In this document: positions 58,391-63,437 of the stretch, one piece after another | Position numbering within the stretch: the first letter of the stretch is position 1 | Layout of the letters: each line of letters opens with the position of its first letter | Assembly (NCBI RefSeq): GCF_029351045.1 | Contig: NZ_JARKIN010000001.1 | Coordinates: forward strand, 2,858,001-2,922,000 | Direction: 5' to 3' | DNA: 64,000 bases | Source of the DNA: Streptomyces sp. WMMB303 | GTDB taxonomy: Bacteria; Actinomycetota; Actinomycetes; Streptomycetales; Streptomycetaceae | Program-made: the position numbers and the translations under genes | The notes under the pieces: model-generated | What the model was told of the DNA's origin: nothing | What the model saw: the letters and a program-made list of their open reading frames with translations, nothing else | The model's database searches: none

Positions 58391-58643
58391 GCCCCGAAGG
58401 GGGTTCCGAGCCGGCGTCGGCGGGAGCGGACGGCACGGCGGGACCGGGCCGGCAGCCTTCCCCCGGCTCGGCGCACGCGGCGGCCGGCGCCGGCGAGGAG
58501 GACACCTTCCGCGACGGCTCGTTTCCCCTCCGAATTCGAAGGGTTCGTAGAGAGCCCGGCACTCAGCTGACGGAATTGCCGAGAACAAGGCAGACTGACC
58601 CGTGCGGGGAACGGAGGAGTGCGGATTCGCAGGGGGCACACCA

Positions 58644-61589
58644 ATGGGCGCCGGGGACCAGGAACAGGTCGGAACGGAGCGTCAGGGGAACAGGCTTCAC
58701 TTCACTGTGCTCGGTCCAGTCCGCGCCTGGCGCGGGGACCAGCAGCTGCCCATGGGCTCACCCCAGCAGAAGGCGCTGCTGGCGGCGCTGCTGCTGCCCG
58801 GAGGCCGCACCTCCACAGCCGAGGAGCTCATCGACGCCATCTGGGGCGAGGACCCGCCTGAGCGGGCCAAGGCCGCGCTGCGCACCTACGCGTCGCGCAT
58901 CCGCAAGGCACTCGGCTCCGCCGCCGGGATCCTGGTCAGCGAGTCCGGGGGCTACGCCGTCCGCACCGGACCCGAGGCCACGCTGGACGCGGAGGAGGCG
59001 CACGAACTCGCCGTACGCGCCGAGAAAGCGGCCTCGGCGGGCGACCGCGAAGCGGCCCGTGAGCTGTACCACTCCGCGCTCGCCCAGTGGGCCGGCGAGC
59101 CGCTCGCCCACGTCCCGGGCCCCTACGCCGAACACCAGCGCGTCCGCTTGGGCGAGTGGCGGCTCGGCCTGCTGGAGCTGCGGCTCGACCTCGACCTCCA
59201 GGTCGGCGGGCACGCCGAGGCAGTCAGTGAACTGACCGCGCTCACCGCCGCGCACCCGCTCCGGGAGCGGCTGCGGGAGCTGCTGATGCTCGCCCTCTAC
59301 CGCAGCGGACGGCAGGCCGAGGCGCTGGCTGTCTACGCCGACACCCGGAAGCTGCTCGCCGACGAACTCGGCGTCGACCCGCGCACCGAACTGTCCGAAC
59401 TCCAGCAGCGCATCCTGGAGGCGGACGACGAGCTGGCCTACCAGTCGGCCGAGGACGCGTCCGCGCCCGGCGCCGAGACCACCCGGCCGGCCCAGCTCCC
59501 GGCGACCGTGGCCGACTTCACCGGCCGGGCCTCCGTGGTGGCCGAACTCGGCGACGAACTGGCGCAGACCGACGGGACGGTGATGGCGGTCTCCGCCGTC
59601 GCGGGCATCGGCGGCGTCGGCAAGACGACCCTCGCCATCCATGTGGCGCACGCCGCCGCCGACCGGTTCCCCGACGGCCAGCTCTACGTCGACCTTCAGG
59701 GCGCCGGGGCCGCCCCGGTCGACCCCGAGACCGTGCTCGGTTCGTTCCTGCGCGCCCTGGGCGTCGCCGACTCGGCCATCCCCGGCGGCACCGAGGAGCG
59801 CTCCGCGCTCTTCCGCTCGCTGCTGGCCGGACGCCGGGTGCTGGCCCTGCTCGACAATGCCCGGGACGCCGCCCAGGTACGGCCCCTGCTGCCCGGCACC
59901 TCCGGGTGCGCGGCCCTGGTGACCAGCCGGGCACGGATGGTCGACCTGGCCGGTGCCCACCTGGTGGACCTGGATGTGATGAACCCCGAGGAGGCCCTCG
60001 CCCTCTTCACCCGGATCGTCGGCGCGGAGCGGGTGCTCCCCGAGCGCGAGGCCGCCATGGACGTGGTGGCGGCCTGCGGGTTCCTGCCGCTGGCGATCCG
60101 GATCGCCGCGGCCCGGCTGTCGGCCCGCCGCACCTGGACCGTCTCCGCGCTCGCCGCCAAGCTCGGCGACGAGCGCCGCCGGCTGGACGAACTCCAGGTC
60201 GGGGACCAGGCCGTGAAGGCCACCTTCGAACTCGGCTACGGCCAGCTCGACCGCGAACAGGCCCGCGCCTTCCGGCTGCTGGGCCTCGCCGAGGGGCCGG
60301 ACATCTCCCTGGACGCCGCGGCGGCCCTCCTGGACCGCGCCCCGGAGGAGAGCGAGGACCTGCTGGAATCTCTGGTGGACACCTCCCTGCTGGAGTCCGC
60401 AGCGCCGGGCCGCTACCGCTTCCACGACCTGGTGCGCCTCTTCGCCCGGGCGTGTGCTGAGCGGGACGAGCAGCCCACCGGCGAGTGCGAGGCGGCGCGG
60501 GCCCGGCTGCTGGACTTCTACCTGGCCACGGCGAGACATGTGTTCGCCTGGGACCACCCCCGCGACCGGACCGTCGACCACCTCGGCCCGCCGGTGGGCG
60601 AAGGGCTTCAGTTCCCCGGCCAGGAGAGCGCCCTGGAGTGGCTCTTCACCGAAGGGGAGTGCCTGATGGCGGCGATCGGGCAGGCAGCCTCCCGCGGGGC
60701 CCTCCGTCCGGCCGCCGATCTGCTCGTGGCCACCAAGGATCTCGCGGACTCCGGCGTCCACTCGCTCCGCTACGAGCGGGCGGCGGCAGTGGTACGGGAG
60801 GCGGCGGAGCGGGCACACGAGGCCCTCCCGGGAGCGCGCGCGGGCATCATGCTGACCCACGCCCACGCACTGGGCGGGCGGTTCCCGCAGGCCGAGAAGG
60901 AGGCGGTGCGCGCCCTGGAACTGGGCCGCTCCGCGGACGACCCGCTCTCCTGCTCCTACGCGCCGAACGACCTCGGCATCCTCGCCACCTACCTCGGCCG
61001 GCACGAGGAGGCGGAGAGTCACCTGGAAGCGGCCATCCTGGCCTTCCGCGCCGACGAGAACCGGCCCTCGGAAGCGAGCGCGCTGTGCAACCTCTCGCGG
61101 GTGCACACCGCGCTGGCGCGGCACGACAGCGCGGTCGAGCTGGCCATGCAGGGCGTGACGATCTACGAGGAGATGGACAGCACGCTGCGGATGGCCAACG
61201 CCCTCTACACGCTGGGCTCCGCGCTGTCGGCCGCAGGGCGGGTGGCGGAGGGGCTGCGGCATCTCACGGAAGCGCGCGAGATCTTCCACGTCAGCCGCCA
61301 GTCGCGCTGGGAGGGCGTCACCCACTTCCGGATCGCCGAGGCGCACCTGCTGTCCGGGGACGCGGCCCGGGCCGCCGAACACGCCGAGCAGGCGATCGCG
61401 CTGCGCGTCATCGGCGGCGAGTGGCGGAAGGCGACGGTGCTCGTCGTCCTGGGCAAGGCGCTGGCCCAGCTGGGCCAGTCCCGCCGTGCACGGGCCTGCC
61501 TGGAAGAGGCGCTGGCCATCTTCGAGCCGCTCGGTTCGCCCGAAAGTGCCGAGGTCAGAGAGGTGCTGGCGCGGGTCGCGGAGCGCTGA
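58644..61589 (+). CDS. afsR: AfsR-type global regulator (SARP + NB-ARC + TPR)
   Basis: A transcriptional activator of secondary metabolism, in S. coelicolor phosphorylated by AfsK. 981 residues from the ATG at 58644; a GTG at 58602 would give 995. The OmpR-like DNA-binding part (~20-110) has FTVLGPVRAWRGDQQL and LRTYASRIRKALG. The BTAD domain (~115-265) includes RLRELLMLALYRSGRQAEAL. The NB-ARC ATPase has the P-loop GIGGVGKTTLAIHVAHAAAD (~320) and FHDLVRLFARACAE at its end. The TPR region (~650-970) includes LGILATYLGRHEEAESHLEA. The afsS-like gene follows. Confidence 0.92.
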   Translation: MGAGDQEQVGTERQGNRLHFTVLGPVRAWRGDQQLPMGSPQQKALLAALLLPGGRTSTAEELIDAIWGEDPPERAKAALRTYASRIRKALGSAAGILVSESGGYAVRTGPEATLDAEEAHELAVRAEKAASAGDREAARELYHSALAQWAGEPLAHVPGPYAEHQRVRLGEWRLGLLELRLDLDLQVGGHAEAVSELTALTAAHPLRERLRELLMLALYRSGRQAEALAVYADTRKLLADELGVDPRTELSELQQRILEADDELAYQSAEDASAPGAETTRPAQLPATVADFTGRASVVAELGDELAQTDGTVMAVSAVAGIGGVGKTTLAIHVAHAAADRFPDGQLYVDLQGAGAAPVDPETVLGSFLRALGVADSAIPGGTEERSALFRSLLAGRRVLALLDNARDAAQVRPLLPGTSGCAALVTSRARMVDLAGAHLVDLDVMNPEEALALFTRIVGAERVLPEREAAMDVVAACGFLPLAIRIAAARLSARRTWTVSALAAKLGDERRRLDELQVGDQAVKATFELGYGQLDREQARAFRLLGLAEGPDISLDAAAALLDRAPEESEDLLESLVDTSLLESAAPGRYRFHDLVRLFARACAERDEQPTGECEAARARLLDFYLATARHVFAWDHPRDRTVDHLGPPVGEGLQFPGQESALEWLFTEGECLMAAIGQAASRGALRPAADLLVATKDLADSGVHSLRYERAAAVVREAAERAHEALPGARAGIMLTHAHALGGRFPQAEKEAVRALELGRSADDPLSCSYAPNDLGILATYLGRHEEAESHLEAAILAFRADENRPSEASALCNLSRVHTALARHDSAVELAMQGVTIYEEMDSTLRMANALYTLGSALSAAGRVAEGLRHLTEAREIFHVSRQSRWEGVTHFRIAEAHLLSGDAARAAEHAEQAIALRVIGGEWRKATVLVVLGKALAQLGQSRRARACLEEALAIFEPLGSPESAEVREVLARVAER

Positions 61590-61607: not shown

Positions 61608-61636
61608 GATTATCGGGCGTTCATCAATCGTTTATC
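61608..61636 (+). promoter_or_regulatory. Three 7-bp direct repeats (11-bp period) upstream of afsS
   Basis: GATTATC (61608), GTTCATC (61619) and GTTTATC (61630) are direct repeats separated by 4-bp spacers. The last lies about 8-9 bp before a possible -10 hexamer (GATGCT at 61646-61651). This is the known layout of SARP binding sites and also of Pho boxes; at afsS in S. coelicolor AfsR and PhoP compete for such repeats. Confidence 0.75.
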
Positions 61637-61815
61637 GCCCTCGGCGATGCTTTTACCCAACGATCCGCCGCGTCGGGGGGCAGGCGGGTCAGGGGGGAAG
61701 CCGCTGGCCCCGGTACGGTGAGCGGCCGCGACAGACCCGTCCGGCGGTCCTCGGGGGAGCTGCCGGGCGGGTTTCCACCAGGGACGCAACGCCCTAGATC
61801 GAGGAGCTAGCCACC

Positions 61816-62055
61816 ATGGCCACTCACGAGCAGACCGTGGACGAGCAGGAAGAGTCCACAACGGGGACCGAGGACAACCACGACACCAGTGCGCCCAGCA
61901 CGGAGAACAACCACGGCACCAGCACGCCGATGGTCGCCCAGAACAACCACGGCACCATCCTTCCTGAGGCGTCGCAGGAGCCCGGGGCGTCCGACGAGGC
62001 CCGGATATCCGAGGAGTCCGGGGAGCCCGAGCAGGCCGAAGTCGGCGCCCGGTAG
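61816..62055 (+). CDS. afsS: AfsS-type small regulatory protein with three NNH-type repeats
   Basis: 79 residues from the ATG at 61816 after GAGGAG. It is acidic, without cysteine or membrane segment. Three copies of a short motif are visible, TEDNHDT (~19-25), TENNHGT (~30-36) and AQNNHGT (~42-48), spaced 11-12 codons. AfsS of S. coelicolor, as I recall it, is a 63-residue protein with repeated T-x-DNH-type sequences directly downstream of afsR and activated by it. The position, 227 bp after afsR and behind SARP-type repeats, supports this. It acts on secondary metabolism by an unknown mechanism. The call rests on motif and position rather than length. Confidence 0.82.
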   Translation: MATHEQTVDEQEESTTGTEDNHDTSAPSTENNHGTSTPMVAQNNHGTILPEASQEPGASDEARISEESGEPEQAEVGAR

Positions 62056-62078: not shown

Positions 62079-62138
62079 GAAGCGCGGGTCGCCATCGACG
62101 GCGTAGAGGGGGAGTCGTCGATGGCAACCCGCGCCTTC
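62079..62138 (+). terminator. Long imperfect hairpin after afsS
   Basis: GAAGCGCGGGTCGCCATCGAC (62079-62099) pairs with the segment at 62117-62138 over about 20 bp, with one bulge and one G-T pair, loop ~17 nt, 24 bp past the afsS stop. It probably terminates the afsS transcript, so the next small gene would need its own promoter. Confidence 0.65.
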
Positions 62139-62314
62139 GCCGCCAGGGTGCGGGCCTGCGGGCCCGGACCCGCACCCGGTGGCCAGGCCCACCGGCGACC
62201 GGTCCGCACGGGACCGGTGCGGACCGGTCGCCGGTTCTCCGGGCAGAACGCCCGGAGTTGGGTACTCAACAGTCAAGGCACAAGCATTCGATCCCGAATC
62301 GACCTGGAGTCACC

Positions 62315-62473
62315 GTGAGTCGTGTAAGAAGCGTTCTTGCCGCAACGGCGCTCGCCTTCGGCCTCGTCGGCCTGCTGGCAGGGCCCTCCCTCGCCGCCAC
62401 CGCCGACCAGCCGTCCGTGGAGCACCACCTGACCGCCGGTGCCGCCCACACGGAGAACAACCACTCCACCTGA
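62315..62473 (+). CDS. 52-residue secreted peptide ending in the AfsS-like TENNHST motif
   Basis: From the GTG at 62315 (GGAG at 62305) the protein has a clean Sec signal: basic SRVRSV, hydrophobic LAATALAFGLVGLLAG, then PSLAATA as the likely cleavage site. The mature part is ~24 residues and ends TAGAAHTENNHST at its very C-terminus. TENNHST is nearly the AfsS repeat TENNHGT. I know no described family. Its layout (signal peptide, short mature part, motif at the end) resembles secreted signalling-peptide precursors. The degenerate repeat after the stop suggests the C-terminus has been expanding or shrinking. Confidence 0.7.
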   Translation: MSRVRSVLAATALAFGLVGLLAGPSLAATADQPSVEHHLTAGAAHTENNHST

Positions 62474-62511
62474 GCGCCGGTGCCGCCCACGCGGCGGAAC
62501 GACCGCTCCCC
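62430..62511 (+). repeat. Degenerate tandem repeat across the peptide gene's stop codon
   Basis: The segment encoding the C-terminal motif (62430-62470) is followed by a diverged copy (62471-62511). The first 20 bases differ at one position (TGACCGCCGGTGCCGCCCAC versus TGAGCGCCGGTGCCGCCCAC); the second halves align with a one-base shift. The TGA stop falls exactly at the junction of the two copies. In frame after the stop, the second copy reads RRNDRSP where the first reads TENNHST. Confidence 0.7.
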
Positions 62512-62662
62512 CCGCGCCGGGGCCGCACCGTCGGCCCCGGCGCGGATCTGTCACCGGCTCCGGCGCACGTCCCGTCTGGGCGGCCGCAGTTGCCGAAGTG
62601 ATGTCCCGGGGACGGTCCCGGGAGCGGCCCCGGAGGAGCGGTCGCCTGCGGGGCCGATCGCT

Positions 62663-63208
62663 TCAGAAGACCGAGGTGACCTCGCATTCGCGGACCTTGC
62701 GCAGCCGGTCGGGGTGGTCCATCGGCACTTGGACCGTCTTGCTGCGGCCGGGGCGCACCACGGCGATGGCCGAACCCGTGTCGACGGTCTCGCTGTTGCC
62801 GTCGAGGAAGGCCACCTCTACGTCGAAGGTGCCGCTGCTCCCACCGGAGTTGCGGACCCGCACGGTGGCACCGGGCTCGTCCCGGTTCTTCAGGTTCTTG
62901 CCCTTGGCCGCGGCGCACTCGGTGACGGTGCCCGAGCCGTCGGCCTGGTTCTGGCGCGAACTGCTGGAGTTGCCGGAGGTGGTGGTTCCGTAGCTGTCGT
63001 CGTAGTCGTTGTCGTAGTCCCGGCTGGAGCTGTGGCTGCTGGACTTCTTGCTGCTGCAACCGCCGCCGCCGTGTCCGCTGCGGCTCTTGCTGTGGCTCTT
63101 GCTGCCGCCACCGCGGCCGCCCGAGGACCGGGCCGGGCTGAAGCCGCTCAGCGCCACCAGCACGAGCGTGACGGCGGCGATCAGTTTGAGATGGCGCATC
63201 CGCTTCAT
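62663..63208 (-). CDS. Secreted Ser/Asp-rich protein
   Basis: 181 residues from the ATG at 63208, after GGGGGAG. An N-terminal signal or anchor (LKLIAAVTLVLVALSGFSPA) is followed by a low-complexity part rich in Ser, Gly, Lys and Asp (SSRDYDNDYDDSYGTTTSG). The C-terminal beta domain ATVRVRNSGGSSGTFDVEVA resembles an Ig-like/FxLYD-type fold. It is convergent with the small peptide gene. The function is unknown; it is probably a cell-surface protein. Confidence 0.8.
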   Translation of the reverse strand: MKRMRHLKLIAAVTLVLVALSGFSPARSSGGRGGGSKSHSKSRSGHGGGGCSSKKSSSHSSSRDYDNDYDDSYGTTTSGNSSSSRQNQADGSGTVTECAAAKGKNLKNRDEPGATVRVRNSGGSSGTFDVEVAFLDGNSETVDTGSAIAVVRPGRSKTVQVPMDHPDRLRKVRECEVTSVF

Positions 63209-63437
63209 TGGGACTCCCCCGAGACGTCGTTTGCGACTGTTCCGCGACTTCGGTGCGCGCTGCGCGCCCCCGGCACCCGGGGCAGGACGCCCCGGCGACA
63301 GTTGTCGCGTGCAGTACAACTCCTATCATCGGCTCAGGACGCGCGCAGTGGCGAGGGGGTTCCCGGCGGCGTAGCGTCGAATGCGGATCACGCACCCGTG
63401 CGGCGCCGGGAGCGGCGCCGGAAAGCGAGGCGAGACC

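Follow-up and report, generated by a model that had tools for sequence, protein, structure and literature searches.

A secreted-type peptide gene beside afsR-afsS in Streptomyces repeats the species-specific AfsS motif and may belong to an AfsR receptor-ligand module

INTRODUCTION

In the RRNPP(A) systems of Bacillota, a secreted small propeptide is encoded beside a TPR-containing intracellular regulator, and the ligand is matched to its receptor. Members include Rap-Phr, PlcR-PapR, Rgg-SHP, and AimR-AimP, and their receptors are of the HTH-TPR or Rap phosphatase-TPR type. According to excerpts of the literature, some RRNPP(A) propeptides hold several putative pheromones (PMC11343458), and the signals of Actinomycetota are typically enzyme-made small molecules (PMC10075063).

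The AfsK-AfsR-AfsS cascade of Streptomyces, in which AfsR activates afsS, involves the same genes as the locus described here. Excerpts of the published accounts state that the three short repeats of AfsS are thought to be crucial (PMC2267785), that its mode of action is still unknown (PMC10972967), as are its targets and mechanism (PMC13011467), and that no inducer of the AfsR sensor has been identified (PMC10936776). As far as these excerpts go, the published cascade differs from what we propose in having no ligand role for the AfsS repeats and no secreted twin of their motif. Our literature search, which covered titles and abstracts, for the most part of open-access journal papers, found no secreted peptide beside afsS and no proposal of the AfsS repeats as AfsR ligand.

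Among regulators of the SARP type, NosP is not known to have a large NOD-TPR part. Like the AfsR proposed here, it is reported, in an excerpt of PMC10972967, to respond to peptidyl ligands, in this case from the nosiheptide precursor; unlike AfsR, it answers the precursor peptide of its own cluster.

Here we analyze a small gene next to afsS in the window, the whole 64,000-nucleotide stretch of Streptomyces DNA under study. A sequence-only reading had singled it out as encoding a secreted peptide tied to AfsR and AfsS by a shared motif. We compare it with its counterparts across the genus.

RESULTS AND DISCUSSION

The afsR-afsS locus of the window

The product of the proposed receptor gene (Table 1) scored 1534 bits against the NCBIfam model NF053617 'AfsR' (cut-off, 1430) over its full length, showed the Pfam domains BTAD, NB-ARC, and TPR with their order kept, and matched the AfsR chains 8k60/8jke in a sequence search of PDB. 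Directly downstream lies a gene with the features of AfsS (AfsR2): it encodes a small protein with three short repeats and is preceded by afs-box-like repeats. Neither this protein nor the 52-aa peptide matched a Pfam or NCBIfam model (threshold for AfsS, E ≤ 1). The afs-box-like repeats agree with CGTT(T/C)ATCGNN, the consensus as quoted in an excerpt of PMC10972967, and the pattern TTCA-N7-TTTA precedes afsS in 111 of 120 loci. No afs-box pattern was found upstream of the peptide genes (0 of 32 regions of 160 nt); words enriched there resemble ribosome-binding sites and the afsS 3' hairpin.

Table 1. Features of the afsR-afsS-peptide locus in the window
Feature	Coordinates	Strand	Basis
afsR, SARP (BTAD) - NOD (NB-ARC) - arm - TPR regulator; proposed receptor	58602..61589	+	NCBIfam, Pfam, and PDB matches
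AfsR TPR sensor region, residues 778-991	60933..61574	+	columns co-vary with the AfsS motif; TPR-like helix pairs in a single-sequence model
Notable AfsR residues: 783, 790, 796, 797, 863, 898, 906, 942 (TPR) and 712 (preceding arm)			
afs-box-like pair, 11-bp direct repeats, upstream of afsS	61618..61639	+	read from sequence
afsS-like gene, 79 aa, TEDNHDT / TENNHGT / AQNNHGT; proposed cytoplasmic ligand	61816..62055	+	
Hairpin following afsS, loop containing GAGGGGGAG; recurs in the genus	62082..62134	+	
Peptide gene, 52 aa, Sec-type signal; product ends in a copy of the AfsS motif (TENNHST)	62315..62473	+	
14-bp perfect GC inverted repeat, terminator-like, after the peptide gene	arms 62512-62525 and 62532-62545	+	

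In 69 of 120 loci, the exact loop sequence of that hairpin, GAGGGGGAG, is present 350 to 1500 nt downstream of afsR; at 1500 to 3000 nt it occurs in 3 of 120, and its reverse complement was likewise found in 3 of 120. A stem of at least 8 surrounds the loop in 65 of the 69 loci, and across 68 distinct sequences with this loop the pairing of the stem is kept, in some with changes on both sides. An Rfam scan of the window returned no plausible family; the hairpin is possibly a structured 3' element or an sRNA of afsS. A second strong inverted repeat (62182-62244; 31-nt arms, 84% complementary, 1-nt gap) lies between afsS and the peptide gene. On the minus strand, a Ser/Gly-rich, signal-bearing ORF (62663-63319) runs convergent to the peptide gene; its C-terminal FxLYD-like match is weak and below the cut-off.

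The 52-residue peptide gene

All particulars that the sequence-only reading gave for the gene were found: 52 codons from a GTG start, a GGAG (which ends 5 bases upstream of the start), a signal-like N-terminus, and the end TENNHST, followed by the stop codon TGA. The AfsS-like neighbor with its three named repeats is also present, its stop separated from the peptide gene by 259 bp. The span originally given, 62315-62511, has the right start and overshoots at its end; positions 62474-62511 are noncoding and lead into the GC inverted repeat. The N-terminus of the peptide combines an Arg-rich start, a hydrophobic core (best 11-residue mean Kyte-Doolittle value, 2.4), and, at the end, A-x-A; this is also the rule by which we called signal peptides in general, and it is one of our own making rather than a dedicated predictor. 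The peptide is atypical in having a single clear motif copy, located C-terminally.

The DNA behind ENNH is not due to chance. The window holds 8 occurrences of GAGAACAACCAC at up to 2 mismatches where 2.27 are expected; none of 100 shuffles reached 8, and the four matches with 0 or 1 mismatch are the four motif copies of AfsS and the peptide. When we searched 150 genomes of the genus with the peptide, 12 had a match at E ≤ 0.01; the only strong ones were the window's own and that in genome G137 (94% identical, E 1e-26), the other ten ranging from E 7e-4 to 6e-3. Further searches with the exact peptide likewise gave G137 plus weak matches, in one of them at E 6e-4 or worse. A contig scan with the 52-aa sequence gave one match (locus L050, E 4e-7), which covers only residues 1-28 and looks irrelevant. 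The DNA pattern for ENNHxT followed by a stop was present in 2 of 392 sampled genomes. The literal C-terminus is confined to these two genomes, but lack of conservation in close relatives, which would have refuted the sequence-only reading, does not do so once the motif is allowed to co-vary with AfsS.

Compared with its counterpart in G137, the ORF of the window differs in 7 codons, 5 synonymously and 2 nonsynonymously (dN 0.018, dS 0.122). Identity to G137 is 0.95 at 62456-62495, 0.70 at 62496-62533, and 0.47 to 0.55 further on. The DNA upstream of the ORF is also well conserved (mostly 0.93 to 1.0), and the comparison therefore gives modest support for coding on its own.

Secreted-type peptides downstream of afsR across the genus

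We screened the 3 kb downstream of afsR in 120 genomes (three of these stretches are shorter, at contig ends) with a motif-blind filter that kept any ORF of 35 to 140 aa preceded by a ribosome-binding site and having a signal-like N-terminus; its settings were picked after an earlier, motif-based look. The filter returned 30 secreted-type ORFs in 29 of the 120 loci, starting about 0.6 to 1.7 kb past the afsR stop (0.7 kb in the window), and all 30, as judged by eye, carry AfsS-type motifs in the mature part. For most loci the filter returned nothing. With a profile search, intact genes came to light in G018 and G048, and apparent remnants in G020, G021, and G090; of the 120 loci, 31 thus have an intact gene and 3 a remnant. 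Because the peptide gene is absent from most loci, a secreted arm would be dispensable or optional.

Over whole genomes, 24 of 26 profile matches with E < 1e-7 lay at an afsR or afsS locus, the exceptions being G096:C408 and G081:C468. A match at E ≤ 0.001 was present in 65 of 150 genomes; the weaker matches are mostly off-locus and resemble other signal peptides. In a family-wide search, 19 of 297 genomes had a match at E ≤ 1e-8, all within the genus of the window (1 of 17 genera). We also looked, with little result, for further motif genes in the window's genome (G000) and G137 and, using one pattern that is the motif of only some of them, in six genomes: the 10 off-locus matches in G000 fall in unrelated proteins or short frames, and the extra matches in G030 fall in a repeat stretch without a peptide-like ORF.

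The off-locus exception in G096 (G096:C408:5613-5771, L260) encodes a signal/motif peptide away from the main afsR locus, in which the motif copies are followed by a larger C-terminal part. In G051 (L089), two different secreted motif peptides lie behind afsS, one of them with five DDHST copies.

The AfsS motif differs between species and is mirrored by the peptide

The core 5-mer of the AfsS repeats takes 59 forms among the AfsS proteins of 114 genomes; AfsS was not identified by rule in 5 of the 120 loci. Repeats within a single AfsS are mostly near-identical, and between species they differ. Motif registers were set by rule and then by hand for G044, G093, G128, G049, and G117. Where a peptide gene is present, its motif resembles that of AfsS in the same genome, as in the AfsS/peptide pairs DSNRP/DNNRP (G036 and G048), DNGMP/DNSMP (G108), EGHTP/EGHAP (G055 and G095), DSHMPAPP/DSHIPAPP (G092), NLHVT/NMHVT (G076), ERHQT/ERHQS (G073), NRHTT/NRHST (G516), LEDSHIT/LEDGHIT (G368), and DNGMP/DNPMP (second afsR locus of G127). 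In the G092 genome, the DNA pattern for DSHMPAPP/DSHIPAPP occurs four times, three in afsS and one in the peptide gene; in G081 the pattern occurs four times as well, two in afsS and two in the peptide gene.

Among 33 genomes, the mismatch between the peptide motif and that of its own AfsS was 0.347, against 0.610 when pairs were permuted (p = 2e-4, the test floor). This set includes the disrupted genes of G021 and G090, both of which mismatch at position 5, and excludes the remnant of G020; peptide copies were hand-set, not blind, for G108, G144, and G031. Two divergent subsets gave the same result, 0.341 against 0.585 for 12 genomes and 0.369 against 0.614 for 10 genomes (both p = 2e-4, the test floor). 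Twenty further pairs, comprising a first 14 plus G516, G389, G413, G546, G149, and the second G127 locus, gave 0.297 against 0.581 (p = 5e-5, the test floor); these were retrieved mostly with a profile of the known peptides, and their motif copies were set by hand and not blind. Without three near-repeats the values were 0.288 and 0.574, and for the first 14 alone 0.299 and 0.533. The off-locus peptides of G096:C408 and G081:C468 are outside these pair counts. Ranked by similarity among 115 AfsS proteins, the own AfsS fell on average in the top 14% (32 peptides). The tie between peptide and AfsS through a shared motif, proposed earlier from the window alone, gains support from both sets, and at the level of sequence the matching is well supported.

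Some forms depart from the common pattern. A clade represented by G389, G413, and G546 (L330, L329, and L332) has AfsS repeats of the type DSTRPIQPM, without histidine, and its peptides mix DSHRP, DSTMP, and DSHTP. In G119 (L370), the AfsS-like repeat is GDNYGT, with tyrosine in place of histidine; its AfsR has Y797/R942.

The AfsR TPR region co-varies with the AfsS motif

We compared distances between AfsS motifs with distances between AfsR domains in 108 of 110 AfsR proteins, G085 and G008 being without an assigned AfsS. With the other AfsR domains controlled for, the TPR region (about residues 778-991) correlated with the motif at a partial r of 0.615 (108 genomes, 499 permutations, p 0.002, the floor), as against 0.014 for SARP, −0.153 for NOD, and −0.007 for the arm; the raw values were 0.614, 0.126, 0.136, and 0.325, respectively. 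The TPR region, with 194 of the 685 variable columns, supplies 40 of the 50 AfsR columns that follow the motif most strongly; the arm supplies 8 and NOD 2.

Single residues follow the motif closely. All 17 proteins with K863 are paired with N at motif position 1 (N1), as are 9 of 91 with R863. Of the 108 genomes, 34 have P at position 5: Y797 goes with T, S, or G there in 72 of 72 cases and its absence with P in 34 of 36, and R942 goes with a residue other than P in 73 of 76 cases and its absence with P in 31 of 32. The AfsR chain of PDB 8k60 (S. coelicolor, PMC10936776), as read from an alignment, has H at 797 and M at 942, from which a repeat ending in P would be predicted for the AfsS of that species. 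In a new set of 25 genomes, 21 with an AfsS motif and 4 without (G241, with the repeat DHHSP, was registered by hand), R942 went with T or S in 17 of 17 cases and non-R942 with P in 4 of 4; all 16 AfsR proteins with Y797 were paired with a motif not ending in P, and 4 of the 5 without Y797 with one ending in P, the exception being G504. Both N1 forms among the 21 occur with R863.

Competing explanations

AfsS could be the AfsR ligand, in a feedback loop, and the secreted peptide no signal at all, its gene being an afsS-derived motif stretch behind a signal peptide that is kept similar by repeated copying or by a use before export, for example, disposal of ligand by secretion. The patchiness of the secreted gene, with its remnants in three genomes, is in keeping with this explanation, as is the drift of several peptides from their AfsS (own-AfsS ranks of 0.43 in G043, 0.47 in G123 and G070, 0.52 in G139, and 0.79 in G040). 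The correlation between peptide motif and TPR region, moreover, was not significant with AfsS controlled (r 0.10, p 0.10); the suggestion of the sequence-only reading that the AfsR TPR domain binds the peptide is accordingly favored by sequence co-variation for the AfsS motif and not separately for the peptide. Yet divergent species retain the signal peptide and the gene position as the motif shifts along with AfsS. Of 16 aligned peptides, all but the window's own have the motif beginning no more than one residue from the A-x-A site (read from the alignment). Simple gene conversion is insufficient, and we rejected it in its plain form, since the peptide copies are similar to AfsS without identity (DNNRP versus DSNRP). 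We consider this explanation unlikely.

It is improbable that some other protein with the same motif preference, such as a transporter-binding protein, protease, or kinase, reads the secreted motif in the envelope or extracellularly, and that AfsR is not the target of the peptide. The peptide has a signal peptide and AfsR, a transcription factor, works inside the cell, as this explanation would have it, but the peptide motif co-varies with the TPR region of AfsR (partial r 0.275, p 5e-4) and hardly with SARP (0.03), NOD (−0.115), or the arm (0.103, p 0.09).

Linkage is a serious rival because afsS sits directly behind the TPR-coding end of afsR: the afsR 3' end, afsS, and the peptide gene could travel together by recombination, so that their alleles match without contact. 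Scored as P versus any other residue, motif position 5 takes 17 changes on a SARP+NOD tree and 5 on a TPR tree minus the top columns; therefore, exchange of the module seems to occur, and the association at position 5 is partly joint inheritance. Linkage accounts for part of this association and perhaps for position 1. At fourfold-degenerate sites of the TPR stretch, by contrast, motif distance was not tracked (partial r 0.07, against 0.60 for the amino acids given those sites), a test that excludes only recent exchange because the sites are near saturation (mean difference, 0.54).

As the whole explanation, linkage is quite improbable in view of changes that coincide on the arm+TPR tree itself. 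In a scan of 566 columns, run separately for motif positions 1, 2, 4, and 5, position 2 changed on the same branches as AfsR 790 (16 of the 27 changes at that residue, p = 6e-9), 712 (13/22, 3e-7), and 783 (12/22, 4e-6), position 4 with 796 (13/29, 4e-6), and position 5 with 898 (6/15, 1.5e-5). These five columns survive correction for 566 × 4 tests; the best SARP background column reaches 6e-5 (position 4). No column passes for position 1, whose two best lie in NOD and SARP, and when any motif change was scored, only 796, 712, and 758 passed correction. Across 39 independent close pairs, changes at motif position 2 go with changes at AfsR 790/712 (p 0.002), to a degree that none of 300 matched column sets equaled; position 4 was not significant (p 0.10, with 46% of matched control sets doing as well), and positions 1 and 5 gave no informative signal in these pairs. 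In a split-half test, the columns picked on one half had a mean partial r of 0.478 in the genomes held out, after control for SARP+NOD and the rest of the TPR columns. Because unselected TPR columns still reached 0.581 given SARP+NOD, the co-variation is spread over the TPR region rather than confined to a few sites. The top columns of the tree-change and close-pair tests were chosen on the same genomes; the split-half test and the 566-column scan are free of this.

We regard it as highly improbable that the two proteins each have the D-x-H motif for chemistry of their own, as a metal site or as a protease or phosphorylation tag. Most forms read D/N-x-H-x-T/S and are compatible with metal or kinase chemistry, but the histidine is lost in NNAMP, DNAMP, DNPMP, DNGMP, NNSMP, ENPMP, DSNRP, and DSTRP, nearly a third of the genomes have P at position 5, as noted above, and the peptides that are present follow histidine-loss and P changes in part or in whole. 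Where the histidine is lost, the peptide keeps following AfsS (DSNRP/DNNRP, DNGMP/DNSMP, and DNGMP/DNPMP), and on these grounds the metal-site reading was rejected.

A functionless chance ORF, which the rarity of the literal C-terminus might suggest, was rejected as next to negligible given the recurrence of the family at the same locus with motif matching, and the mostly synonymous changes relative to G137.

A candidate receptor-ligand module

Since the motif of AfsS and the peptide evolves with the AfsR sensor, the two look like the long-missing signals of AfsR. The reading we prefer is that afsR, afsS, and the secreted peptide gene form a receptor-ligand module, and we consider it evenly poised between right and wrong. 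The arm/TPR sensor of AfsR would have the AfsS repeats as its ligand in the cytoplasm; this species-specific ligand would have a second carrier in the secreted peptide, which would present it outside. In the peptide, one to about seven copies of the motif come after the signal peptide, mostly starting at the predicted signal-peptidase site. After secretion, the peptide would most likely be cut outside the cell, re-imported by an oligopeptide transporter, and read by the TPR groove of AfsR, where it would add to or compete with AfsS in determining how active AfsR is; as a signal it would probably serve kin-specific self-recognition. Processing, uptake, and the sign of the effect are conjectures on our part, whereas binding of the motif to AfsR, and secretion and signaling of the peptide, are what we infer from the pattern of matching. 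Multicopy afsS is reportedly active without afsR, and so AfsS acting through AfsR only is a poor fit.

Structural comparison is consistent with a peptide-binding sensor. A single-sequence model of the arm-TPR part (mean pLDDT 68; C-terminal blocks mostly >80) shows TPR-like helix pairs, with residues 783, 790, 796, and 797 on one helix. Columns above r 0.25 number 15 of 86 in helix A and 7 of 93 in helix B; these helix positions, taken from the model, tie the co-varying columns to the TPR groove to a modest degree. The best 50 of 1520 fold matches were led by LGN/Pins and kinesin light chain TPR entries, many of them complexes with partner peptides, and LGN/Pins was also the best sequence match in PDB after AfsR and EmbR. 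Partner peptides of LGN/Pins and kinesin light chain occupy the TPR groove. By their titles, the matched entries include complexes with Inscuteable, NuMA, Frmpd, and cargo peptides; unlike AfsR these proteins are eukaryotic, and the likeness, which is one of TPR superhelices, has no bearing on shared ligands.

The proposed module would work like RRNPP peptide-TPR signaling. A candidate propeptide is encoded beside the receptor in 29 of 120 loci, none being found in most loci. Its receptor, however, is a SARP-NOD-TPR (STAND) activator, and no RRNPP receptor appeared among 14 sequence matches or the best 50 of 1520 fold matches; because the receptor is of another type, the module is not a member of that family. 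It differs as well in its second, nonsecreted motif carrier (AfsS), in its host phylum, Actinomycetota, and in the conjectured state of export, processing, and uptake.

If the AfsS repeats are the ligand of the sensor, they offer a candidate answer both to what AfsR senses and to how AfsS acts. The residue pairs to which this reading points are motif position 2 with AfsR 790/712/783, position 4 with 796, and position 5 with 797/898/942. If true, it would bring peptide signals of a kind that our literature search did not turn up for Streptomyces and a short synthetic peptide as a handle to switch on silent gene clusters. Possible rather than probable is the wider reading of a genus-wide Streptomyces peptide pherotype system, in which AfsR would be a STAND-type peptide receptor with a TPR groove tuned to a fast-diversifying five-residue code, AfsS its cytoplasmic multivalent carrier, and the secreted peptide its extracellular, often multi-copy carrier, so that antibiotic production would be gated by recognition of self or clone-mates.

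In 12 genomes with more than one AfsR, 16 of 18 AfsR loci are without a downstream ORF carrying a repeat motif (filter: exact 5-mer repeats, low Arg), and at several of these extra loci (L367 and L372-L384) residues at 797, 863, or 942 are altered. The extra AfsR proteins may be orphan receptors or readers of other peptides.
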